A DNA stretch of 64,000 nt from Cyathus striatus (taxonomy: Eukaryota; Basidiomycota; Agaricomycetes; Agaricales; Nidulariaceae), in the NCBI GenBank assembly GCA_025738555.1, contig JAOVFP010000009.1, forward strand, positions 4,814,749 through 4,878,748, read 5' to 3'. Within the stretch, counting starts at the first letter, position 1, and each line of letters starts with the position of its first letter. The position numbers and the translations under genes are program-made. Below are positions 5,503 to 64,000 of this stretch, one piece after another. Below the pieces are notes generated by a model that worked only from the letters and a program-made list of their open reading frames with translations, made no database searches and was not told the origin of the DNA.

Positions 5503-6685
5503 ATGGCCGTAAATAACTACAGAAATTTCTGGCTCCCTGGCCTCCTTCGCAACAGTGTAGTTGCAATTCCAACATATGCTATCATGACTGCATTTGCGTA
5601 TAGCAGGCGTTCGAACCGTCGACGACTCGAAGACCACTTCCATGCTATGTGGGGCTGTATACTGGACTCATTAATTGATGACTTGAGACCTCACCTCTTC
5701 GTCAATCCGCAATTAACGGTGTATTACGACCCAGACAATCCAGATCCAGATACATCTGGTGGGACAGTTTCGGCTGATGCTGCCAAGGAGTACCGTCCCG
5801 ATTTCGTGGTGATGGGAGTCCATGCAAAGAACAATGACGTGAGAGCCGGTAAACAGGATAGTACCTTCCCGGACAGGTTTGTCAACTGGTCTGCAATGAA
5901 AGTTCAATCTGCGAGCCCCTTTCTCCTTTGCGAACTAAAGAGGTGTCCCCCACGCTCAATCTATGAAGATACCCTTTTTTAAAAACTATTACGTCAACAT
6001 TTTAGGGACGCGAGGTCTGATGCTGAGACGAAGGTTCGACTTCTGTTTGCTAATCCAAACTACCATTGCGAAATGGTTATCTTTATCGCTGTAGTTGGCG
6101 AGTTCTTCCAGTTCAAGATCGCTGAGAAGAAAAATAATCGCAATTTCAATCTGAATGATTTACTATTCGATAATCTCTCCCCAATCAACCCCCCGCGGGT
6201 CAAAAGACCTCAAATTTTGTTCCGGCATGAAGGTCTTGCAGTTTCACATGAAGCATTCGAGAGGGAAGTCGAGGATGAGTCTAATGCAATTCCTGAGGCT
6301 GGTTCCTGGTCCAAGTTTCTCTTGTTCGGCACAAAGGCTGCCAACCAGCGTCTCTACCACATCCATAGAATATTGGAGGAGCTCTCAGAAGACAATGGGA
6401 TTCATGGATTCCAGCCACCAGCGTATGGGGAAAGTGCATCGGTATGGCTAACATTTATTTAATGATGTGTATTTTATTGCTGGTTCATCTTACATCTATT
6501 AGGAAGACGAATTTGATATGGTACTAGACAATGATGGAGACAATGATGGAGAAGAGAAAGGAGATGGGGATGTAGGTGATAATGAAGGCGATGATGAACA
6601 CGAGGATGAATACGATGATGAAGGCGATGGTGAATATGACGATGAAGGTGATGATGAATATATAGATGAATATATAGATGAATAG
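5503..6685 (+). CDS. PD-(D/E)XK nuclease-like protein with acidic tail (pair 1)
   Basis: Three exons, with introns at 5943-6005 and 6442-6502, both keeping frame. The motif pattern is RPDFVVMG (D100), then a hydrophobic strand SPFLLCELKR (E144-x-K146), i.e. D-x(n)-ExK as in PD-(D/E)XK nucleases. This is followed by an amphipathic segment DAETKVRLLF and a strand VIFIAVVGEFF. The nuclease-like genes at 23.4 and 48.9 kb share this order, including a late (F/I)GxxAxxxxY...I..EL element (here LLFGTKAANQRLYHI). Unlike those it ends in a ~45-residue run of D, E and G encoded by GAT/GAA-rich sequence. It is divergent from the partner at 3430. Activity (DNA cleavage) is inferred from the motifs alone. 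The start at 5503 is the first ATG in frame; a Met nearer AFAYSRR would align better with the other two. Confidence 0.6.
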
Positions 6686-11329: not shown

Positions 11330-13904
11330 TACATCTTTGAAGGCGATGGCCTGAGACTGAGGAAGAGAAGAGGGTTAAGGAATCTACGCGTACATTTTCT
11401 TCCTTTCTTTCTGCTCATCTTACTTACGAATACCACAGCTTTTGCTCCCACCTCGTTCATGCACAAATTCCCCATCTCAATCGTCAACATCGAGAACCTG
11501 ACAACGCCACCATACAACAAGGACGACTAGTACATCCGCGCCTTCATGTCAGAGATCGTACCCGCATTCAAGGACATCGCTCAGCTGAATCCTCTCTTCC
11601 GGGATCAAATCACCAACTTCAGCATCAACCAGGTACCTATCCTCGCTCTCTCTCCCTCGCCACCTGGCTAACGTACCCCCAGATCGCCTCAAACATCTTC
11701 GACGAACCATACAAACTAGTCGACTTCGCTGCAGCAGTATCAACAGGCGAAGTCCAAGAACTCCAAGACGTCCTTGAATCCCTCTCCATCCCAGACCATC
11801 TCCGCAAATCCCTCCTTGTCATCAAAAAAGAGCTCATCAATGCCTAGCTCCAATCCAAACTCTCGCGAGACATCAATTCCAAGATTGCCAAGTGCCAGTA
11901 TCAAGAAGGAGCTGGGGATGGAGAGCAATGGGAAGGATAAGCTTATTGAGAAGTTCCGAGAGAGAGCGGCGGCATTGAAGATGCCTGAGGGTGTGAGGAA
12001 GGTATCTGATAGAGAACTAGCGAAGTTGTAGGGGCTGGAGCCTGCTGCTAGCGAGGCGAACGTGACGAGGAATTATTTGGATTGGATTACTCAGGTTCGT
12101 TCCCTCCCTCTCCCTCGTCGTTTCGTACTGACGCAGCGTAGATCCCTTGGGGCAGACATACCCCCGAAAACTACTCCATCACGCATGCCCAAAAAGTCCT
12201 CGACGAAGACCACTACGGCCTCACAGACGTCAAATCCCGCATCCTCGAATTCCTCGCTATAGGAAAACTCCGCGGAACCGTCCAAGGCAAGATCATGTGT
12301 CTCGTTGGCCCTCCTGGCGTTGATCGACGAGGTGGATAAGATCGGGAGGGGGCATAATGGCGATCCTGCTAGCGCCCTTTTGGAGATGTTGGATCCAGAA
12401 CAGAATGGCGCTTTCCTTGATCATTAGTGCGTTCTTCTTCCCCTTCATGTTCGTGTATGCTGACGAGTTCCGTAGCATGGACGTCCCCATCGACCTATCT
12501 CGCATCTTGTTCGTGTGTACCGCCAACAACCTGGACACCATCCCTGCCCCGCTGCTCGACCGTATGGAGGTCCTCGAAGTCTCAGGTTATGTCTCAAAGG
12601 AGAAGAGCACCATTGCCTCTCGCTACCTCGGCCCTCAAGCTAAGGAGGCCAACGGTCTTGGTAGCGCTGACGTCGTTCTCGACGAAGCCGCTGTCGATAT
12701 TCTGATCAAGTACTACTGCCGTGAGAGTGGTGTTTGTAACCTGAAGAAGCATATTGATAAGGTGCGTGTTCTACTTCTATGCGTCTATGAAACCTGGCTG
12801 ATAGTGGCCATAGATCTACCGCAAAGCTGCGTTGAAACTTGTCCAGGATCTGGGTGAGGAGACGTTCCCTGAACCCAAGGAAGGCGAGGTTAGCCCTGAG
12901 GCTGCAGCTACCGCCGTCGAAGGCGAAGCTTCCTCTACAACCACCGCCGAGGACTCAACGTCCAAGTCTACGCCCGAGGAGAAGCCTCAAACAATACCCA
13001 GCACCGCGCCCAAAGCCAACGAACCGCAAGCCGAATCCACTAGCGCTGAAGACCCCGAGAAGGCCGTGACGACGCAGGAGCGCAAGCCGATGGAGATTCC
13101 CGCTGACGTTCACGTTCGCATTACACCCGACAATCTGAAGGATTATGTTGGCCCACCAGTGTACCAAAAGGACCGGATGTATGCTTCCCCTCCTCCGCCG
13201 GGTGTTAGCACTGGTCTTGGGTATCTCGGGAATGGGAGTGGTGCGGTTATGCCTATCGAGGCTATTGTACGTTTGCATATTTTCTTTTGCGTTGGGTGAT
13301 ACTGATAGGATTGGTTGTAGAGTATGCCGGGGAAAGGTGGTCTGCAGATTACTGGTAAGCTGGGCGAAGTCATCCGGGAGAGCGCAAACATCGGCCTTAG
13401 CTGGGTCAAAGCCCACGCGTACGACCTCGGTATCGCAGCGAGCCCTGACGACCAATTCCTTACCGACCGCCATATTCACGTGCATATGCCTGAAGGTAGC
13501 ATAGGAAAAGAAGGCCCCAGCGCGGGGACTGCAATTCTGAGCGCGTTTGTGAGCTTGTTTACAAAGACGAAGATTGATCAGGATATTGGTGGGTACCCTC
13601 TACATTCTGCTCGAATGCTATTCCTTATCACCTACCTTGCACAGCTATGACTGGGGAGATCTCGCTCGTTGGGCAAGTGCTCCCTGTTGGCGGGCTCAAG
13701 GAGAAGATTCTTGCTGCTCATCGTGCGGGTATCAAGACCATCATCGCCCCTGCAGCCAACCGTCCCGACATCGAGGAGAACGTCCCCGAGAGCGTCAAGA
13801 CCGGCATTCGATTCGTATACGTCGAGAATGTAAGGGAGGTGCTGGCGGAAGTGTTCAAATGTCAGCCTGTTATCGAGAAGTGGAAGTATACATTAGGCCT
13901 TTAG
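11330..13904 (+). pseudogene. Mitochondrial Lon protease (PIM1-type) pseudogene
   Basis: Lon homology runs through several exons in order: the N-domain end (SIVNIENLTTPPYN, RAFMSEIVPAFKDIAQLNP), [54 protein letters not shown], then VGPPGV directly joined to [17 protein letters not shown]. The Walker A Lys and everything up to the Walker B strand are therefore deleted (around 12315-12320). There are in-frame stops at 11528-11530 and later. From ~12470 onward the sensor/lid region and the protease domain are well kept, including the catalytic Ser motif [13 protein letters not shown] and the Lys motif [14 protein letters not shown], ending KYTLGL with a stop at 13902-13904. A functional Lon ATPase cannot be made; a free protease-domain protein is possible but unlikely. 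Confidence 0.9.
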
Positions 13905-15504
13905 GCGTGTTTCTGTGAGGAGAGTGCGGGTGAAGATACCTTTGCTACTCATGGATATTGTACGCGACAAGGGTTCCCTCGTCGATTGTGTAACGAGGTG
14001 TATTCGCGATAGATGCGGATGACGTGACACCTCGTTCTGACATATGCGTTAAAGCTTGCACGGCAAATATCGACGAGGAATTAATCGGACTGGTTTATGC
14101 AATCCATCGTCCTCGCTACGCCTACATTGTCGAACACAAATGAGCCCATCGTCCTAAAGAGTGGTGCCGAAATCGCTTAGATCCCAGCAGTCTACGTTAT
14201 TAAACCATGCTACGATCAATTGGCATATGTCCCCTGATATGATTGCTAGTGGGTCAGTGAGCGATCTAAGGATGAATTTGTCGGAGGACTTAAAGATCCC
14301 TGCGCGGATTGGTGCAGATTGGGTTGAGGAGGGTTTAGGGATGGTAATGAGTTTGCTGCAAATGTTGGACGTGCGCGTTTTGTTTTTTATGATGATATGA
14401 TATGATATGATACTGCCGGACGTTTAGAATTACGAGTGCTCCCGGATACGCACCACACGCTCCTTAATGACCTCAATGTGGCATCGGCAGTCGTCTCGAC
14501 CCTGCGCGTCCTGTCTCATATTCTTCAAGAAATGCAGCAGCTCCGGCATCAATCTTGCCACTATCTTTATTAAGTTGCATACCACGAGCTAGCCTCGTTC
14601 TTCTACACTCTAAATTCACAGCACCGCATATCCTGAGCTGAATTGCTCATAGCCTGAGAGCTAACTGCCGGTTCGTCGTGATGCTCTTTCAAACTACCAG
14701 GGTTCTCGTGGCTCTCCACTCGGGTGCTATATTGACTGCAGCTTGTTCCACCCAAAGTTTTCGTTCTAGTGTGTATATCTTGCTACAATGAACTTGGCCT
14801 CCTAAAACTATCTTGTATCTTCGAATGCTTCATCTGGTGTCGCTGCTCACCACTCTACTGCAGCCTTGACCATGCTACCTCACTTGTTTTCGTTGAAGTT
14901 CTGTGGTAACTATCATGTAAAAATTGCATGTAGCGTCGTGTTCCTTGGACAAATGCCAGCCTATATGATCTCTTTAGGATCTCTTATATAGGCTATCGTT
15001 GTCGTTTGAATGTATAGCGCGGTTATACCCTCCTGTAAACTTAGCAACAAGATTTTAAAACCAAAGTGAATGAATGTACTCTATGACTAGCGAGTCCCGG
15101 TCCATTGATATTCATCAACTAAGTAAGACACATGTAAGAAGATGTGTCGACCAACTCTAGGTTGATACAGTATATATGTTAGTAGAAACGACGAACAGAA
15201 GAGACACTCGTGAAGTAATCCCCCTAGTCGTAAAGCAAGCTCCAAATGCTAGGCATAACATATAGAGAAGAATCAAGGTGCATGATCGTGTTATATGATC
15301 AGAGAAATGGACGAAGGGAAAAAAATGGAGGATTGATGATGAACGAAAGAGAAGAAATAGATGCGAAAGAAGATTCCGCGAAATTTCACGCTCTCCCTCG
15401 ATCCACGCATCAAGCGCCACGTCCAGTGACAGTCCCATAAGCTGCGCAAAGATTGTGAATGGATGGATAAATGTGCGGTCGTCGTTGAACATTATATGAG
15501 TGGG
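13905..15504. other. Intergenic; contains a segment related to 56.8 kb
   Basis: No intact gene. About 14840-14945 is similar at roughly 70% by eye to 56800-56905, just 5' of the DUF6532-like pseudogene, suggesting a dispersed repeat or a relic of a duplicated gene flank. A short run of ATGAT units lies at ~14390-14410 and an imperfect hairpin (CCTATAT...ATATAGG) at 14960-14993. Confidence 0.4.
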
Positions 15505-15995
15505 TCACGATCTCTCCCTCCACCAGAACCAGAACGAGTCAAACTCCCACTCAACCCCCAGTAAACTTCTTAAAAGGAAGAGTTTGGGATTCGTGCAGTT
15601 GCGGAAGGAGGCGGCCAAGAGGCCTGTTTCCATGCAGGGTTCTCCGTCGTTTGGCATTGCTGGGCGATATGGTGAGATTGGAATAGGGAGGACGGCGAGT
15701 TCGAAGGAGAAGGAGAAGGAGTGGGATGTAGACGGGGAGGGGAGGGGTGAGGTGGTTGTCAAGGAGAGCATTGATGAAGATAGGGAGGAGAAAGTCAAAG
15801 GGAGGGAAGAAAAGGATGGGAGTAGGGGATTCATGGGCAGCGTGAGGCGTATCAGCCTCGTTGAGAGACATAAGCGCACCGAGAGTAGTGTCTCTCTCAC
15901 TGGCGTTGTTGAAGACACCCCTTCTCATCCTCCTCGCTAAGGACTCTCGTACCCATCTGAGGAGTAGCATAGGCAGTCAGCCTAGTGCCGACAGA
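15505..15995 (+). pseudogene. CFEM-protein cytoplasmic-tail fragment (second copy)
   Basis: The open frame encodes SLHQNQNESNSHSTPSKLLK, KRKSLGFVQLRKEAAKRP, MQGSPSFGIAGRYGEIGIGR and RRISLVERHKRTESSVSLTG. It is clearly homologous to the 3' part of the CFEM pseudogene at 28.34-28.85 kb, but this copy starts abruptly at about 15505 with no CFEM domain or signal peptide upstream. The frame here is better preserved than in the longer copy. It lies next to SET-gene fragment B. Confidence 0.65.
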
Positions 15996-16479
15996 CACCT
16001 CACTCGCCCAGGCACCGACGCATCCTTCACCCGCCCATCATGGGAAACGACGAGTGGGGAATGTGTAAGCATAGCGATGGTTTGCCAAAGTTCATTGACC
16101 TCCTGATACAGTCCCTAAGGACTCTAGTTATGAACTTTATAATCTCATGAACACCTGGATCATTTAAGATATAACATGAGATGGTTCTTACATTTGCATG
16201 CAACACAATTATATGTACTAATCTAATGCAGCAGTGCAGCAGAATGCGAAAAGCAGATAAACGACGTAGGAAATACCGATAGAAGATACGAGAAAGTACG
16301 AAATGGAGACAGAAAGGGAGTAGACAAAAAGGAATAATCGGCCCAAGTCTTTGCAAGTAGCTAACGAAAAGAAAAAAGGTTATAAATAGAATAAACTATA
16401 TAAGTAAGGCTGCTGACCCCATCTACGTGAACAGTATGGCGGCCATCGCTCGCCGCAGTCGCGGTCTTGTCGGTTGCGG

Positions 16480-18700
16480 TCAGCTGAGGGTCCTCTGGGA
16501 ATGTATGACGGAGCCTGAGTATGAACGCGGGGAAGGCACATATGAAGACTGGCTCGATTGAGACGAAAGAATGCCGTTACGAAGGGCGCGGGGTGCACTA
16601 GGTACAGGTCGTGGGGCAGTGGGTAACGTGCTGGGATTGGATGTGAACGAGGAGCCTGACGAGCAATAAAGAGGAGGAGTAGAGGATGGGGGAGGTCGTC
16701 CACCAGACAGCAACACTGAAGTATGAAATGACCGAAGATGTGTTTGAGGACTGCACGGACGATAGGAATCGAACCGTTTTGGTAGAAGTGGAGAGGTCTC
16801 GCCGATTTCGCCTTCTTGCTGAGAAACCCGGCGAGTTTGAGGGTGGTCCAATAACAGGGTGCATTGGCAGTGAGTGGGGTTTAGATATCTATTTGGTCAA
16901 CGAGACAGTGACGACGGGTACAGGGAGTGGGGTGTCACTCGGTAAAGGTGAAGAATCGGCGGTGATGGACTGTTCAGCGAGCTCCACCTTGGCCTCATGC
17001 ATAATCTCGTGCGTGAGTGGCGGAGTCGGAGCAGGCTTCGCTATTGCTCGAGGAGGCGGCGGGGAGGGAGTATGAGCCAACTTGGAGTTGTGAAGGGCGG
17101 AGGATGACAGCGGAGGAGGGTGATACCCGTTGACCTTTGGTGGTGCCATCTGGTAGTCGTCGACATCCATAGCTTTCCCTTGAGCTGACGGAGGAGGTTC
17201 GACTGGAGTCGCATCGACAGCCTCCCCTGCCAGATTATGCTGACCGTCAACAGACACCTGTATACGCAACATAAGAGGCGACAGCGGTAAAACCGGAGAG
17301 GGGCTTTCGTGGAAAGAGCCCGTAGATAAGGTACAATAGGCGACTGCAATAAAACGGTCTGCAGCATCATAGGCGACGGAGCTAGCACCTCGTTCGTACC
17401 AACAGGCGAAACAGCCAACACCTCATTCGTACCCGCCAGAGAAACAGCGAACGCCGATGACGCACTCATTGGCGACATCTGAATGCCGGTAAGGGTAACC
17501 TCCTCTTCCCGCTGCTTCTTCTTCTGCAGCGCAAAGCCCTTGAGGGTGAGCTTGACTTTGGGAACAGGGGCCGGTTGAAGCGGAGACAATACTGATGAGG
17601 GAGAAGTATAGTGAGAAATGGATGCTTCTCGTGGCATTTCGGACGGGGGTGCGAGAGGAGATGATGGCGGCATGGACGGCGAAAAAGGAGTTGCCTGTCT
17701 TGGATACGGCTCCTGAGACGAGATGGGCGGAGCGGAGGCGGGAGGCCCACGAGGAGAAGGTGACCGAACGACGACATGAAGTGTAGGAGACTTGGAAGCA
17801 AGACTATACGCAATCGGCACGTCAGGAGAAGAGTGACATTCATCCTGTCCTTCATAAGCTCCAACAATCTCCCCACCATCAACCATCGGTGACCATGGGC
17901 GAGACTAGGCAGTACCAGGGCTCAATTACACCGATCGTATACTCTCTTGCTACGTCCTCAAGTCTATCAAATGAAGACACGGTCCGTCAGTCTGTTAGAC
18001 CTTTCATTTCTCGACTCTGTTCCTTGTCCCAACACAATCGAGCCAACTGCCCCTACAAGTTTCAAGGCACCGATTCCGACGCCGCGGAAGAGGTTGGTAC
18101 TGTGATTGAAGGTGCTAGAGGAGGTGGGGGAGAGACGGAAGAAGATAGTTTGACGTCAGATAGCTGAGAATCTAGAAACGTCCTCGGAGAGACGTTCAGT
18201 TCATAGCTGAGTAGCGGGGGTGGTATCGACCGCCAGCGCAACTGCAAAAATAGTGGGTATTGCGTAAGGGGGACGAAAGGAAAACGAAAACAGAGAGAAA
18301 GCCGACCTGAATGTTCCAGCTCGTTCTTTGACTCTCACATGCGTTTTCAAAGACAATAAGATGCGGCTTTCTTTGGGTTTTCCTTCCTCACACTCGTGAG
18401 GTGGAGAGCGCCTCGAGGCCGTGGGTTGAGAGTATCAGTAGAGCTTTCAGCACCGAGGTGGTGGGAGAGAGAGGGCGAGATGGATGATGATGGCAGTATG
18501 CAACAACGAAGGAACTGCAAAAATTAGGCTGTTTGTGTTCGAAGTGTAAACCAAATACACCTCGGTATTCTCGGCTACCAACCACTGTATTTACCGGCAA
18601 GCACTTCCGGGTGGCAGTGCTGCGTGTCTTACACTTTTCTTTTGCTATGTACATCTCAAGTACATCTCTCTCAAATCTCGTTGGCACTTGTGGGCACCTT
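16480..18700 (-). pseudogene. SET-gene fragment B (proline-rich C-terminal region)
   Basis: Long P/S-rich minus-strand frames contain VPKVKLTLKGFALQKKKQRE, GIQMSPMSASSAFAV, an imperfect repeat LAGTNEVLAVSPVGTNEVLA, and at the 3' side KRFDSYRPCSPQTH with SFTSNPSTLPTAPRPVPSAP. The KVKLTLKGFALQKKKQREEE block resembles the K/R-rich C-terminal segment of basidiomycete Set3-like SET proteins. The 3' portion matches fragment D at 37.78-38.09 kb, and D continues into sequence matching the SET pseudogene at 59.6-59.8 kb, which is why I tie B to the SET family. Frame changes and stops around 16860, 17280 and 17900-18060 make it non-functional. Confidence 0.5.
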
Positions 18701-21411
18701 GTGGGTCCCTATTGGCCCATGCACATTTCCTTTGGCCATTTCTTTACGCTCAACACTTCTATGATGACTCAAGATATCCCTGAACTCGGGTAAAATCGCG
18801 CACAACCTCAGTCAGATGGCATTGGATAATATTCTGGATGCGTTGCTTGTTCTCCGTTAGCCCTTTGTTCACCTCAATACGCTCAACGCCTCGAGGATTT
18901 ATCCACAAAGCGCACCATATGGTTTCCAATTTTTCCAACATACTTACATGTTCTCATCATCGTTTTCCCTTTTGTCCCATCCAACATGTGTTGACTCACG
19001 TCACCTAAGTTATCGTCGATTTCTCCTACAAGCATCGACAGGATCTATTTCAGCATGTTAATCCGACATTCCAGAGTATGATATCCCGGTCACAGCATTA
19101 TAATCTGAATTTTAAATTAAGCACCCTATACACTAAGCCTGTATCTGCTCAGTGGTTTGGTACATGGTCATGAAACCCCGATGAATTCTGCCAGCAGCAA
19201 CGCTGCTGCAACTACCACCTCCAACTTCTATAGACTATTAGCCACATTTATGATATTACGAAGATCGCTTGCGATTCAATCAGCATTGCCGCTATGTTGA
19301 TATACTCGTGTCCATGACTACTGCCCAATGCTTTTTGAATCCTGTACCGGTAAAGAAGTGGACATCCCACAATTAACATCGTGAGCATTTGATTATTTCG
19401 AATAAGTAAACGAAGTTATATCCGTTACCAAACATCGCCTCTTCGAGTCCTCCCCAGTTTGAAGTCGTGATATATTGCAAAGCAATGCCATATCTTCATA
19501 TACACTATGTTACTCAATTAATACAATAATCGCTAATCACAACAGTTGAGACTCAAAGAAATCTCGATTTTCCTGTAGGTAATGAGAAAACATAGAAACT
19601 CTCTCACTGTACTCAAGCTTCCTCCCAGAAACTTTATGCCAGGTAAAACATCCTCAAATTATCATAAAACATTTTTTCTAATTTTCAATCCTTTATTTTA
19701 TAAGCTCGAAACTTCTTGAACTATGTATGGGGATTATTCATGTAAGCCATTCGATGTTGACGTTGTCAAGAGAAACATCAAGTTTCGAGGAAAATCACCC
19801 AAAATGATATGATTGGTATAGCATCAAGTGTAGTTGTATTTATCCCCCATCTTTATACGCACTAACATTCTCGCTACCTCTAGTTCTCACGTCTTGAGAT
19901 GCCAATTGGATTTTCCGTTGCCATATTTTGTATTCTGGGAAATCGTATAGCGCTGAAAGTATCCGGAGTCACCTGAATGAGAGCATTGAAAGGGACACGT
20001 ACATTTTAGCGTGCACTCCAAACGCAAGGGTGATTGAAGGGGTTACTGGTACAATCTACTTACCTTTTTCTCTTTGTATATTCCAAATGTGTATAAGAGC
20101 TTACAAATTGCTTCACAAATTTTAACATTTGAGCTTTGACTCATCTAAGTTGAGATAAAGTGAAATTTTCCGCAAAGAAGGCATTGACATTTCCCAACTC
20201 ATCCAATCGCTGCCATGGATCATCGTACTGATTTCAATATCGTAGTAATGCGCTCGTTCAACTTCAGCCTTTAGCAGAATGAATGTGTAGTTCGTCATCT
20301 CTACTATCATATAATATAAATCGACGGGCCCTCACACAATCCTGTTTCTTTTTTCGGATGCTGGGTTTTGCGATTCTTCGATATCCTTATTCCAACAATA
20401 CCCTTCTCTATTTCAATCACATTTCTCCTTCAGTTTCTGCTATCCTCCAATTTCTAATTATCTCCGCATTCACTCATTATGTCAATCCCCCCTCTCTTTC
20501 CACTTTCCTTCGCCCATTTCCCTATCTCTCTTCCCATCCATTCGCTCTTTCAACTTTACTTACATATTGTACTGACGATCGATACATGATTCTAGCAAAC
20601 ATCAAAAACTGTCTCCCACTAGGTTCTCGTGAGTCTGGTGATCGAATACCCTCGCTTAATTTGTCGTTGTTCTATGTTGTCTTTACTTTTATTGTGAATA
20701 GTGTGCTGGGTGTACACTCCAATACGAGTTGTGGTAGAAGAATGCGTTCTCTAAGTGAGGTTGAAAGTGCTGACAACTTTGACAAGGATTCTACTCAATT
20801 CTAGGTGTCTCATTACTTCGGCTTAACTGAATCTAGCATTTGTTGAACACGGCTCAAACACCCACATGCACACGTCGCGACAGTTCAGCTTCGACGAAGT
20901 CATACCGCAGGATGTGAACCGGTAGGCTGAGCTAAATCAACAGGAAGACTGAGTAAATTGAGATAGATTAATATGTACAATACAATACAATTTCGGGAGG
21001 TCTCCTCTAATGAGTTGATGATGTGACATATTTCGGTCCTCGACACCACAATGGCCAAGCAATTACTATTGATTGACTAATGCTTAGTGAAGCATAACAT
21101 ACAAAAGAAAATTATGCATAGTAAACAAACATGATGCCTATCTATTAGAAGACCATGAAATCAGTGAATGGTAGTTATGTAAATGAATAATGGGTGGGTG
21201 CATTGAATAAACAGACCAGCAGTAAGGTGACTCCAATGGACTCAGTAGTGACAGTGGTCAGAGGAAGCTGAGCAACTATGATGGACAATAAAGGATCAGA
21301 TGAGATTATCTGCTCTGCTGGGCAACCTCACTCAATAAATCAATAAATCATATGCTAAACATGGCCAAACTGGATAATAGATAACAACGGAGTATGTATT
21401 GGTATAAGTTG
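18701..21411. other. 2.7-kb gene-poor stretch
   Basis: No coherent exon chain was found. Open frames such as 20283-20804 are hydrophobic by composition and match nothing I recognise. No TIR, LTR or tandem repeat was recognised. Confidence 0.4.
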
Positions 21412-22061
21412 CTAATCCGACTTTACATCTACGCCATGCATAAATAAGTTTGCAGAGGGGTCTTGCTCAGGTCGTTCGAAATCATAGACCACGAGCCTGT
21501 ACCATTTATAACGCTCTCGAATTCTAATGACATCCTCCGGGTCATCAATACCAAATACTTGACACATTGCATTGAAGACTTCCTCCCTTCGCTCTTGAAA
21601 TGCTTTCATATGTGCCACAGGCCGGTTCGTGATAAATACAAAGAGTATATCTTCCGAAGTGTGTTGGCGATTTCTGGGAGGGGTAATAATGCTAAAAACA
21701 TGAACAGTGAGATATCTCTTTCACTCATAGTTATTGTAATATCAACATACAGATCATTTTCATACTTCTTATCAAACCCTAGCTCTTTCCACCTTTCATA
21801 TAGAGGTGCCCTCACGTTATCGATGCAACTGGGGGGATCATATTTACGAAGAATCTCCCTGTTCGTGAGCGTCCATCCAGCTGCGTAGACGGGAACCTCA
21901 ACTGCTATCTTTCCGTTAACAATCACAGTTGTTTTGGAGAGTCTTGGCTGTTTATCAATATCTATGGTTGGTGGAAAGAGATAGTTAAACCTAACATATC
22001 TTGTAGCCAACACAAAGTTATTCCAAGGCAGAACTTACTGTGCACGATTCATGACTGGCAT
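21412..22061 (-). CDS. Small unknown protein, partner of nuclease-like gene (pair 2)
   Basis: ATG at 22061 (MPVMNRAQ, tiny first exon), then two short introns, stop at 21412; predicted 177 aa. It aligns with the 174-aa partner of pair 3: VPVYAAGWTLTNREILRKYD against VPGYVAGWIIKNWEIRKKWD, then a shared helix-like segment (MKAFQERREEVFNAMCQVFG) ending RIRERYKWYRL. The family is unknown to me. It is predicted soluble, with no signal peptide or membrane helix. It is divergently transcribed from the nuclease-like gene at 23422. The shared upstream region carries a later transposon insertion (22367-23200), which could affect expression of both genes. Confidence 0.65.
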
Positions 22062-22366
22062 GATGAAGGTAAAGGTTGAAGTGTTAAAGAATAGCTGTTG
22101 TACACGCACCTATTTAAGAATTTGAACATCAGTCATGTGACTTAAATTACACGAAATAAGCTGATTGTACTTAAGCTTATTTGTTTCAAGTTGATTGAAC
22201 AATAGAAATAATAAGGTGTGAACTGGTACCATAGTTTCAGCTGTCTGTGGGTGACAGAATAGAACCATTTTAACAATATAAAATGTTGCAATGGGGGTTG
22301 TCCATTCTACGGGGTTTATCAGATGTGTCGGTATTCCCCACAGCTACATAAAAGATAAACCACATA

Positions 22367-23200
22367 CAGTCAAACTTGTAATAGTCCATACCTGTATGAA
22401 GCCATAATCGGCTATAGTCCATAGGTTTTTTCATCCACCGAATCGGTGGGCGGGAGAAATGGCTCGTAACCCATACTGTCACCAATGCTCAATAACCCAT
22501 AGAATTTTCTAGAGTTCGTAACCCATACATGCACCCTGAAAAGGAAATATTGTGCGCCCAGTGCACTCCTGCAGGCTCAAGCAAGCTCTTACAAATTACA
22601 GAAATGAATGAAACATTTCTCGTGGTCCATCTTGTAATTCCCAGGTTGAAGGCGAGATCTCCTCTGCCTTGAACGACCTTGTAGCAATTGGTGCACTCCA
22701 GACATGTAACAAAATGTCTATTGAAGAGCTATGCAACCCTTATGCTGAGCAGGAGAGCGTGTCCAAGAATACAACGGATGAGGACATCTTTAAAGCTGTC
22801 ATGGAGATGATGGAGGGGGGGCAGATGCACGCTGAGAAGAATGGTGGAGATGGTGGAGTAGTGGACTTGGAGGAAACTAAAGCTATATCTATGCGTCGAG
22901 ATGTATTGGCAGCATTACTTGCTATTTGGAAGTACCTCTCAGATAGCACTGAGCCAAATGCCAGAAGGCTCGAGCAGGACCTTGCAAGGTTTGTATGTCA
23001 AGTACACATGGAAGAGTCAGCAAGTATGGTGCTTACAACGATTACAGTACTTCGGCAGATAATATTATTACGTAATCACCGCTGTAACCTCGCGAAATAT
23101 ATTACGTAATCGTCGGCGCTTATCGCAGCAGTCCATAACCATCTATAACCCATAGCTTTAGACATCCACCAACCCCTATGGGTTACTACAAGTTTGACTG
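22367..23200 (+). mobile_element. Tc1/mariner-pogo-like element, 834 bp, internally deleted
   Basis: The ends are inverted repeats starting CAGTCAAACTTGTA on both sides (22367 onward; reverse complement ending 23200), flanked by TA at 22365-22366 and 23201-23202, the target duplication of this superfamily. Subterminal copies of (C/T)AACCCATA occur at ~22466, 22493, 22519 and 23146 and could be transposase sites. Inside is the C-terminal part of a transposase-like frame. The element is too short for a full transposase, so it is non-autonomous. It sits exactly between the divergent genes of pair 2. Confidence 0.85.
22645..23109 (+). pseudogene. Transposase C-terminal fragment (Tigger/pogo-type)
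   Basis: The frame VEGEISSALNDLVAIGALQT ... EDIFKAVMEMMEGGQ, followed by SMRRDVLAALLAIWKYLSDS, resembles the region after the DDE catalytic domain in basidiomycete pogo-like transposases. An intron acceptor (CCCAG) precedes it at ~22644. No catalytic D/D/D residues are present. The family call rests on this resemblance plus the TA-flanked TIRs around it. Confidence 0.5.
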
Positions 23201-23421
23201 TATAGAACATTGTGGGTACCTCAGAACAATGCATAAAAATTTCAATTCTCTGACGTTACAGTTGTATTGTTCATTGGAACAATTGGTCGCATAGAACAAA
23301 TAACTAGTAATGAATAGAGTGATAGAGTGAAATGGCTACATGCATTGACAGAAATGGATCGCATAGACTGAGTATATATATTAGCATAAGTGTACTCCGT
23401 CTACTATAGCATATCGGCACA

Positions 23422-24590
23422 ATGGATTCTCGCCTCTCTATCATGCGTTCTCTCTCTGCTTTAAATTCTGTATGTTATAACCCGAGGAACACCGAGGATT
23501 TTGTGCGCCCTCTCTGGACCGTCATACTGAATGACATAGTACACGACCACTCCCTTGAACTCATTCCTACATCAGAGTTCAGGCTCTACACTTCCCCACT
23601 GGACAAATTTCCTGACGTGCTCCTGCTCATGATACAGGTGTTTCGGAGATTTCTCTCTTTAATTCTAGTTTCTTCGATGATATCGATAAATCAGGAATGA
23701 CAGTTCACGACAAGAATGCAAAGGATGTTATTCCTGACTTTGTCATTTTACTTCCAATAGAAAAGACAAGATATTACGACTCCCAGGAAATAGCCGAATT
23801 TCTAAATAGGATAAAGGAGCGCATTATACCCCCAATCCCTCGCCTGCAAGAGCTCTATGCTCCTCTGCTTCTGGAGGTCAAACATGCGGCTACACGCCAC
23901 GCAAGCAATGTAAAAGTATATGCTGAGGATGTTAGCAGATTGACACATATCGCAAAGGTTCAAGCAACACTCCAGGGCAACTGTTTGTTCTCTTCGCCAA
24001 AGTTTGTGAAACAAACTGAGGTGCTGCTAGTTGCTGCTGCCGGGGAGTGGTGGACCGTTCGTATCATGAGGAGGTCCATGGCTGTTGAGTTTGATATATG
24101 TGATTATGCCGAGGACAAGTACAGAAGCAGCGAATTTGAAAACGACGAAATCGAAGAGAAGTTGTATCATCCTGCAGAAACAGATTTGATGGATAAAGAT
24201 GTGTCTTTTCAGTTTGACCAGCTGTTTGATATAGTGTGGAATAAGCCAGCGGAGCAGCAGAAGACAGAAAGAGATGTACGGGCTGAGAGAAGATTCAACA
24301 GTAAGGAGAAAATTGCCGATGCCAAGAAGAATCTACGTGATTTTCTCTCACAGTCCAAGGACCTATATTACGGTGAAGAAGACATAAACGAGTACTATGA
24401 ATGGGAGAAGAAGGCAGGGAAAAAGATTGATGATTTTATGGTCGCTATATCCGCCCCAGAATCTATTAATAAAGAAGACCTGGCATTGAAGTGGGTACCT
24501 ATCATGAGGATCGGGAGCCCTGCGTCCACTGCATACATGAATTTCATCGAAAACGAACTCATGGGTGCTGTAAAGAATGGGAAGTACTGA
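23422..24590 (+). CDS. PD-(D/E)XK nuclease-like protein (pair 2)
   Basis: Starts MDSRLSIMRSLSALNS with YNPRNTEDFVRPLW, matching YNPRRTEDFTHPVW of the pair 3 protein. The core is IPDFVILLP, then APLLLEVKHAATRH (ExK), AKVQATLQGNCLF (conserved Q), VLLVAAAGEWWTVRIM, a charged spacer, and the C-terminal motif MRIGSPASTAY...FIENEL ending KNGKY. The two open frames meet at ~23640-23690, where an intron is needed. The phase only works with a weak donor (GTTTCG at ~23640) and the acceptor at ~23675, so either the gene uses a poor splice site or it has a one-base frameshift. Otherwise the copy looks intact. It is predicted intracellular and to cut nucleic acid; this is inference from the motifs. Confidence 0.65.
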
Positions 24591-47750: not shown

Positions 47751-48401
47751 CTATTTCCCCTCTGGCGCATCCTCTTCATCAGGATACTCATCGTCTGAAT
47801 ACATGCCAGAATTAGAGAATATTGTAAGCCTATACCACTTAAACCTCTTGCGCATCCTGTCCTTATCTTCTTTACTCTCGAATTGGAACAGATCACACAT
47901 CTGCTCAAAAATCGCGTCTTTTCGTGTCAGAAAAGTCTCCATATTTCGCTGAGACTTGTTCAACATGAAAGGAAAAAGGATGTTTCGTCCATCAAGCACT
48001 ATTTGAAGTGGAAAGTAAATCAACCTGGCATAATAACAAAGTAAGAAAATCTGCTGAGGCACTTGCCATATGAAATACTACAACTTACGGGTCCTTTTTC
48101 TCATCCAGCTGCATTTCGTTCCATCTACCCGACAATATCTGCTCGACATCGGTGACACTGTTCCAGGTGTTTTCTGGGTCCCACTTTTTACGAATTTCCC
48201 AGTTTTTGATGATCCAGCCGGCCACATAACCTGGGACTTTGGCTCGTTCCTTCTGAGTCAGTTGACCACGAACAGGTGGGAGACGGGTAATCTCTTGAGA
48301 TTTCGGGAAAACAGCTTCATATCTGTGCAGAAAAAGAATACTACCGTCAGCTTTTCATAAGTTTTATAGCGGAATTCAACCTACATGTCGCGCTGAACCA
48401 T
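47751..48401 (-). CDS. Small unknown protein, partner of nuclease-like gene (pair 3)
   Basis: ATG at 48401 (MVQRD, 17-nt first exon), two introns, stop at 47751; predicted 174 aa. Its middle is VPGYVAGWIIKNWEIRKKWD. Its C-terminal half is RNMETFLTRKDAIFEQMCDL then RMRKRFKWYRLTIF, ending in an acidic tail DDEYPDEEDAPEGK. It matches the pair 2 partner along its length, including the position of the first two introns. No known domain, signal peptide or membrane segment is evident. It is head to head with the nuclease-like gene at 48925, 523 bp apart, so co-regulation from one promoter region is likely. The acidic end may hint at a DNA-mimic or protein-binding role, but that is speculation. Confidence 0.7.
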
Positions 48402-48924
48402 TGTGAATAAAGTCGGTTGTGGGAGAACCAGGTCTATGTCCGTGAACTGTATATTACTTATATATAGCATTTTCAATCAACGTCATGTGCAGTGGGCGGC
48501 GTAGTCACGTGTCCGACACGGCATCGCGGCACCGTCTGGCAACAGCGACTGTTAATCTTATTTAATAATTTTGTTTTCTAGTGCAGTTCCATTTTTTAAA
48601 CATGCTCTCACACGTTAGAAGTATCTCGAATCTTCGAAAATAATGCTGTGTACTTATAAGTGAATCACTGTACCGCATGGAACATGGTGCATGACCATGT
48701 AACTGTTTACCTTCTCTGTGTGTACACATCAGTATTCTTTACCAAAATTGAACTATCGACTAATTTTCCAATTATGATTGCAATACATTTAACCATGTGG
48801 GGCAACATTAGATAAAATTGATGATAGATCTGACAACAACAAAGTTCCGAAAATCCTAATGAGTTTTGATATATAAGAAAGGCATGTAGAATTAGTTGTG
48901 CACCCGAACGAGCTCAGAACTAAC
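48402..48924. promoter_or_regulatory. Shared divergent promoter region of pair 3
   Basis: 523 bp between two ATGs facing away from each other. It equals the corresponding space in pair 2 (1360 bp minus the 834-bp element and its 2-bp target duplication = 524 bp). TATATATA-like stretches near 48450-48470 and 48870-48880 could be core promoter elements for the two directions. Confidence 0.5.
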
Positions 48925-50067
48925 ATGGAACACGTATCACTCCTTTACTCCCTCACTCTTCTCAATTCCTATATATACAACCCTAGAAGAACAGAAGACT
49001 TCACACATCCCGTATGGGCTGATATAATGACAGATTTATGCCGACCAATATCCAGAAGTCTTCTTCCCACCCCTCAGTACCGGCTTTATGTTTCACCGCG
49101 AGACCTGGAGCAACCTGCAGATCCCAACATTTCTTTCTTGACGCAAAGTGACAAAGAAGCTAAAGGCGTTATCACAGACTTTTGCATTCTGTTGCCAAAC
49201 CTGACGTTAGCGAACGATACGTCGAGAGTTTTGAATGTCGATGAAGTGCTTAAATACATGGAGCCTGGAATCAACTTCCAAGAGTTTGTTGTCAAGTCCG
49301 CATTTATTTCGGCTCTCGTAGAGCTCAAGCGACCATTATCACGCCATCTTCCTGATGTGAAGTCATATGTAAATCACAAGGAAAGAGGGTTGGAGCAAGC
49401 GAAGCGTCAAGTTACAGCGCAGGCTGAATGCTTATTTTCCATACCAAAATATGCATCTCAGAAGCACGTTATTTTGATTGCAGCTGTGGGCGAGTGGTGG
49501 ACTATGAGGGTGATGAAGAGAGAAATGGGCCATAAGTTCGCTCTTGGTGGATACGAGAGTCTTCTTGAAGATTTGGATGAAGATGATAGGGAGGAAAACG
49601 ATGAAAAAAGGATGCTGGATGAAACTGATTGGGATGATATTTTCTATCCTCCTAATAAGGTTCCATCCATTGCACAGGTAGAGCTGGAGAAAGCAGAAGA
49701 GTTGGAACGACAGCGGGAAGCGAAGCGGATTCAGGAAATGGAAGAGTTGGAGCGCATTGGTGATACATGGGCCGGAGAAAGCACCCCAAAGAAGCAGCTT
49801 CAGAATTTTCTCAAGGACGATAAGATAGCACCTCGATTCTGTACGGAAACAACAGTTAATGAACTTTACCGGCTCCAGGGTAATTGCACCGACGCCCAAT
49901 ACCCGTTTATGTATAGAGAAGTTGGAAAAATCCCCGAAGTCAAGATTACCAAGGAGAGTAGTTATTTGTGGTGTAATCCGATGAGGATTGGAAGCCCCGC
50001 ATCAAAAATCTATTTGGACTTCATTAGGAATGAACTGAGCGACGCTGCTAAAAATCACAGGTACTAA
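48925..50067 (+). CDS. PD-(D/E)XK nuclease-like protein (pair 3), intronless
   Basis: ATG at 48925 (MEHVSLLYSLTLLNSYIYNP), chosen over the upstream GTG because it aligns with the pair 2 start; single exon, 380 aa. Core residues are D85 (VITDFCILLP), E133 and K135 (FISALVELKR), then Q162 and Q166 in LEQAKRQVTAQAECLF and the strand HVILIAAVGEWWTMRVM. This is the D-x47-ExK pattern plus downstream helix typical of PD-(D/E)XK enzymes. A charged coiled-coil-like spacer (~230-290) precedes the C-terminal motif NPMRIGSPASKIYLDFIRNE ending KNHRY. It is the best-preserved of the three. A nuclease role is inferred from the motifs; no DNA-binding domain was recognised. Confidence 0.75.
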   Translation: MEHVSLLYSLTLLNSYIYNPRRTEDFTHPVWADIMTDLCRPISRSLLPTPQYRLYVSPRDLEQPADPNISFLTQSDKEAKGVITDFCILLPNLTLANDTSRVLNVDEVLKYMEPGINFQEFVVKSAFISALVELKRPLSRHLPDVKSYVNHKERGLEQAKRQVTAQAECLFSIPKYASQKHVILIAAVGEWWTMRVMKREMGHKFALGGYESLLEDLDEDDREENDEKRMLDETDWDDIFYPPNKVPSIAQVELEKAEELERQREAKRIQEMEELERIGDTWAGESTPKKQLQNFLKDDKIAPRFCTETTVNELYRLQGNCTDAQYPFMYREVGKIPEVKITKESSYLWCNPMRIGSPASKIYLDFIRNELSDAAKNHRY

Positions 50068-63903: not shown

Positions 63904-64000
63904 GGGTTAGGGTTAGGGTTAGGGTTAGGGTTAGGGTTAGGGTTAGGGTTAGGGTTAGGGTTAGGGTTAGGGTTAGGTTAGGTTAGGGTTAGGGTTAGGG
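63904..64000 (+). repeat. Telomere repeat array (TTAGGG)n
   Basis: About 16 units of TTAGGG run to the window edge in the 3'-end (G-rich) orientation expected at a right chromosome end. Two shortened TTAGG units interrupt it at ~63974-63986. Confidence 0.98.

Follow-up and report, generated by a model that had tools for sequence, protein, structure and literature searches.

Among described systems, the Spok spore killers of Podospora and other ascomycetes come close to the locus reported here, being fungal, present in multiple copies and equipped with a PD-(D/E)XK-type nuclease, and PMC6660238 and PMC9972908 present this predicted nuclease as needed for killing. Spok is, however, a single protein in which a kinase domain gives resistance. 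The bacterial cifA/cifB system of Wolbachia is a second point of reference, where the nucleases of the CR-REase7/CifB type carry a histidine three residues after the active glutamate, according to PMC11342252. Restriction enzymes such as BpuSI and DrdV also belong to the PD-(D/E)XK nucleases. PIF/Harbinger-type DNA transposons, in turn, have two genes, one for a nuclease and one for a small partner. No paper on a meiotic driver in Agaricomycetes was found in the literature collection searched.

The window analysed here comprises the final 64,000 bases of contig C9 (4,814,749–4,878,748) in a genome of 107 Mb and 24 contigs, and it closes in a TTAGGG array, in agreement with the subtelomeric setting given by the original prediction. 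About 14 kb from this telomere lie two head-to-head genes, hereafter pair A, with the following features:

48925..50067, plus strand: nuclease-like gene A, 380 aa, a single exon in one open frame
48402..48924, no strand: intergenic region common to both genes, between the start codons, read from the sequence
48385..48401, minus strand: small gene A, exon 1, 17 nt, encoding MVQRD, modelled
48089..48322, minus strand: small gene A, exon 2, with the VPGYVAGW motif, from the gene model
47751..48024, minus strand: small gene A, exon 3 including the stop codon, with the RFKWYRL motif, from the gene model
63907..64000, plus strand: TTAGGG telomere repeats at the chromosome end, terminating the window

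The coordinates and lengths previously assigned to this pair are right: the plus-strand ORF encodes 380 aa, and the minus-strand gene, running in three exons from 48401 to 47751, encodes 174 aa after splicing of two GT-AG introns, both in phase 2. A distance of 523 bp separates the start codons, and both motifs attributed earlier to the small protein were found in gene A. Its short first exon fits the N-terminal start of the Cyathus database protein P0023, and a similar one was modelled at two further loci of this genome, E2 and F. A second intron, likewise in phase 2, was modelled at the corresponding position of B, B', C, C', D, D', E and E2.

We then asked what the larger protein is. Nuclease A carries E24, D85 and E133-x-K135 (with L134 between), followed by Q162/Q166; the putative active-site residues D85, E133 and K135 and the downstream glutamines had all been predicted and are present in the translated ORF. 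This corresponds to the PD-(D/E)XK active-site signature, namely D and E-x-K on successive strands together with an acidic residue in the first helix. In an alignment of 23 sequences D85, E133 and K135 are at least 90% conserved and E24 is invariant, and across the 15 nucleases compared D85 and K135 occur in all, E133 in 14 and E24 in all 14 that cover it. A low-confidence structural model of the nuclease appears to resemble the PD-(D/E)XK core of alpha-beta-beta-beta-alpha-beta(-beta) topology, and a PDB search by sequence gave no match to BpuSI or DrdV for this 380-aa protein. As the original prediction held, the organisation differs from that of Spok: no kinase family appeared among the Pfam matches of the nucleases scanned, and two genes are involved, the partner being a separate small undescribed protein. 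Likeness to CifB is likewise limited, as the column in question (136) holds H in one of the 15 nucleases (B), R in 12 and C in 2. A search of the protein database found 22 homologues from five mushroom genera in all, 21 of them outside Cyathus, in genera that include Lentinula, Rhodocollybia, Coprinellus and Candolleomyces. In one, P0019 of Candolleomyces eurysporus, K replaces the active-site E133, reflecting possible inactivity or a gene-model error. Four others from Rhodocollybia and Lentinula (P0002, P0006, P0007 and P0015) have a hydrophobic N-terminal segment directly before the NRRRTED motif, with a mean hydropathy of 1.8–2.5 over 17 residues; by the same measure the first-family copies assessed in this genome reach 0.5–1.1 and the H copies described below are intermediate (1.2–1.3).

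The small protein had no match to any known family or fold in the libraries searched. A model of Cyathus P0023 (pLDDT 71.8, pTM 0.70) predicts an alpha+beta domain of ~150 residues with beta strands, for which the PDB and viral libraries held no clear match. An identity as an HMG-box protein was considered and rejected: HMG_box PF00505 scored 16.2 bits against a cut-off of 25.4, in one of eight members only, and the beta strands of the predicted model speak against it. From 728 candidates out of 5.8 billion, a profile of eight first-family members retrieved four proteins, each of them belonging to Cyathus striatus; as the protein database yielded no first-family small partner from any other genus, the nuclease is more widely spread than its known partner. 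The Cyathus striatus nuclease P0001 and small protein P0023 are 57% and 59% identical to pair A, respectively, and the longest contig given for either is 251,926 bases, which makes linkage of the two in Cyathus probable too. For three of the four Cyathus small proteins the contig differs in length from that of the one Cyathus nuclease found. Two small-family members of the present genome are 89–91% identical to Cyathus striatus proteins, so that its host is probably closely related to this bird's-nest fungus.

To establish how often the two genes occur together, we took inventory of the nucleases by six-frame genome searches with several family members, followed by a recount. This gave 15 loci with at least 300 nuclease residues (A, B, B', C, C', D, D', E, F, G, I, K, H, H' and H''), leaving out shorter fragments at C12:4.095 Mb, C9:4.570 Mb, C4:28 kb and C12:2.050 Mb. 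A divergent small gene lies upstream in 12 of the 15, at a spacing of 0.3–2.4 kb, which in a 107-Mb genome is pairing far beyond chance, even if the 12 loci are not independent, since some copies are recent duplicates. All 12 are located 15–416 kb from a contig end. The reading frame is uninterrupted in eight nucleases (A, C, C', D, E, G, H' and H''), and seven of these adjoin an open small gene, of which only the 142-residue conserved part was seen open at H''. Among the interrupted copies, B and B' are split (the latter also with K in place of E24), D' is broken by four stops, F is fragmented and H contains an in-frame stop. The three nucleases lacking a divergent small gene are G, an intact 384-aa copy 7 kb from a telomere (C11:6414-7565) around which no small gene was found within C11:1-12000, and the decayed I (C9:4.768 Mb) and K (C4:1.527 Mb), for which neither the 1.3–1.5 kb read upstream nor genome searches with the small proteins revealed one.

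Small genes were also found on their own. The first small family has at least 20 distinguishable loci, of which nine are in pairs and 11 of 20 are without a full pair. Ten of its members are open (A, B, B', C, C', D, D', E, E2 and C12:2.05 Mb; first exons modelled in A and E2 only), and the remaining loci are degenerate or partial, the unpaired ones being mostly decayed. The second small family has at least 10 loci, three in pairs and seven unpaired, and among the latter C10:2.51 Mb and C6:2.04 Mb are open over the matched part. With unpaired members in both families, small genes without a full nuclease are common. Five of them lie 1.7–2.2 Mb inside a chromosome, the paired loci being nearer to contig ends. 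The pair is real, recurrent and more extensive than could be seen from the window: it consists of two linked genes that are maintained together, with G and the unpaired small genes as exceptions.

Two further pairs lie within the window itself:

21412..21989, minus strand: small gene B, open over exons 2 and 3, no position assigned to exon 1
22365..23202, no strand: 838-bp element located between the two B genes, its inverted ends 16 bp long
23422..24590, plus strand: nuclease gene B, in two separate ORFs of 92 and 297 aa
3430..3957, minus strand: 'small2', a distant small-protein relative of 175 aa with the motif VPMYVFGF
5503..6462, plus strand: nuc2 (H), a distant nuclease relative with an in-frame stop

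These had been taken for the same two genes occurring twice more. The pair at 21.4–24.6 kb is indeed a real copy from the same family, albeit with a frame-split nuclease whose halves could be joined by several GT-AG introns, none of them clearly right. The pair at 3.4–6.7 kb is instead a distant relative with an interrupted nuclease: the latter was reached with family members as queries (best E 1.7e-15) and with nuclease A itself (E 3.0e-8), the small protein was recognised as a relative by profile comparison only, and the H-type nuclease is open in two copies on C12 (H' and H''). The element at 22365-23202 is TA-flanked with ends TACAGTCAAACTTGTA, and it is opposite in orientation in the C4 duplicate, which is otherwise 99.6% identical.

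Of the explanations considered, we favour a two-gene toxin/antidote-like module, with a probability of about 0.4. In such a module the 380-aa protein would be an active, metal-dependent PD-(D/E)XK DNase that harms the cell, bound and restrained by the small alpha+beta product of the divergent gene; each small protein would match its own cognate nuclease, and one common promoter region would drive both genes. Such a pair would be retained, since a nuclease left behind without its small gene would be costly, and it would multiply through duplications from one chromosome end to another; distortion of inheritance would be a further possible step. What favours this reading is the pairing frequency (12/15 and 7/8), the conserved active site and the co-divergence, constraint, layout kept in the distant H family and small genes outliving their nucleases considered below, along with the Spok nuclease domain being needed for killing (PMC6660238). 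It is weakened by the solitary G, by the decayed state of most unpaired small genes and by the lack of a small partner outside Cyathus in the database, though 21 of 22 nuclease homologues come from elsewhere.

We next examined whether the two genes have evolved together. Over six pairs (A, B, C, D, E and Cyathus), the percent identities of nucleases and small genes correlate with r = 0.956, and two of 720 relabellings, the true one included, do equally well. Consistently, unrooted trees of the two genes, cut to these pairs, have three of three splits in common. With six pairs, and B covered by its larger ORF alone, this co-divergence is supportive, not conclusive. Purifying selection is indicated for both genes when diverged copies are compared. 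For the nucleases dN/dS was 0.285 (A-G), 0.307 (D-E), 0.367 (H'-H'') and 0.252 (B-E, at a dS near 2), other distant comparisons being saturated; for the small genes it was 0.309 (D-E), 0.335 (D-E2) and 0.402 (E-E2), and 0.186 for A-C at a dS of 3. Among closer copies, the B-B' small genes differ by two nonsynonymous and no synonymous changes, too few for any constraint to be visible, and the nucleases of C and C' encode identical proteins, with 2 of 1191 coding bases changed.

Such co-divergence, selection on both genes and head-to-head layout would equally be expected of obligate subunits. The small protein may accordingly be a positive cofactor, conferring specificity or dimerisation, of a nuclease that serves the host, for instance in genome defence or in handling chromosome ends, a role that would suit the subtelomeric placement of the 12 paired loci. 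A two-subunit enzyme of this kind ranks a close second among our readings and is held tentatively. It sits less well with small genes that stay open beside a broken or absent nuclease, one of them 90–91% identical to its Cyathus relative, with the intact solitary G, and with many decayed copies, a fast turnover for a host enzyme. If true, it would represent a new enzyme class near fungal chromosome ends.

The layout itself appears to be old. The H nucleases are 19–25% identical to the others and keep N19, E24, D85, E133 and K135, but not Q162/Q166. Their small partners scored 29.3 against the first small family in a profile comparison, a value reached by none of 300 column shuffles (largest 19.5; reversed profile 11.7), and a second alignment gave 28.6, again reached by 0 of 300 (largest 23.0); the hhalign probability for the two families was low (15.8–27%, E 0.0007–0.0016). 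Judging from the diverged nucleases and the profile relationship of their partners, the head-to-head layout has probably persisted over deep divergence, between proteins that are both without a described-family match in the libraries searched. This bears on the explanation that the two genes have no common function and are old accidental neighbours carried along by subtelomeric segmental duplication. The window does hold duplicated subtelomeric blocks, and the nearest pair duplicates lie within such blocks. Nevertheless, pairing that survives nuclease divergence to 19–25% identity, at a spacing of ~0.3–2.4 kb, and dN/dS well below 1 for both genes make mere neighbourhood improbable.

The toxin/antidote reading predicts that the small gene should outlive the nuclease, and this was found at four loci. 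At D' the small gene is open and 98.4% identical to that of D, next to a nuclease with four stops. At C12:2049362-2050396, deep inside a chromosome, an open small gene 90–91% identical to Cyathus P0026 is accompanied in the divergent position by only 28–37 residues similar to the C-terminal end of the nuclease (tblastn E 4.9e-6 within this region, 3.3e-4 over all regions examined). At E2 there is no nuclease within 4.3 kb upstream, and at H (3.4–6.7 kb) the small gene is open beside an interrupted nuclease. The reverse, an intact nuclease without a small gene, occurs once, at G. The four-to-one asymmetry, which leaves out B and B' with their unclear nucleases and the unpaired second-family members, is in the predicted direction, yet not significant (one-sided binomial 0.19).

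At D', moreover, the cause of the loss is non-selective. Here (C4:126,200-130,994) a transposon with inverted ends is inserted between the two genes, and from the transposon outward over the nuclease 78 of the 88 CpG sites of D are lost, compared with 3 of 125 on the small-gene side. Loss of the nuclease to CpG decay beside a transposon requires no selection on the small gene, and the D and D' small genes, with three nonsynonymous changes and one synonymous change, show no constraint since copying. Independently of the pair, the CpG-specific C-to-T decay over this interval is a natural record of mutation beside a transposon.

Finally, the original prediction had allowed for a mobile-DNA system, and the pair might be the core or cargo of a mobile element, the nuclease serving as the endonuclease in transposition and the small protein binding DNA as its partner. 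The multi-copy, patchy distribution and fast turnover would fit, as would the combination of a nuclease gene with a small partner gene known from PIF/Harbinger transposons. CifB REases, too, are traced to mobile CR-effector-like elements (PMC11342252). The near-identical duplicates, however, extend far past the pair: B/B' is 99.6% identical over at least 15.5 kb, and C/C' spans at least 9.4 kb contiguously, or ~11 kb with gaps. Pair-sized ends with inverted repeats and target duplications, as expected of a PIF/Harbinger-like element, were not found in these two duplications, and the inverted-repeat ends noticed belong to other elements inside the intergenic region. As the duplicated blocks far exceed both genes, the pair, as far as tested, spreads within subtelomeric duplications, without ends of its own, and is not itself a mobile element; we give this alternative as little credence as accidental neighbourhood. 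The proposal of a nuclease and small-partner system that is toxin/antidote, drive-like or mobile is, overall, partly supported.

If the toxin/antidote reading is true, the pair would offer a case of possible genetic conflict in mushrooms that is tractable at the molecular level. Its furthest extension, a selfish element of mushrooms in which a PD-(D/E)XK toxin and a new-family small antidote that outlives it, as at C12:2.05 Mb, spread among chromosome ends as a basidiomycete segregation distorter, is unlikely on present evidence. The decayed pair F (C14:3737475-3739970) is closer to the Cyathus pair (small gene 73–78%, nuclease pieces 57–84%) than is the intact pair A (57–59%), which points to turnover of pairs between species. 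Positions 12000-19803 of the window, in turn, are 97% identical to C12:4025488-4033181, with parts matching C9:4.54 Mb, C12:4.36 Mb and other contigs, and form a patchwork of subtelomeric duplications with relatives near the ends of several contigs.
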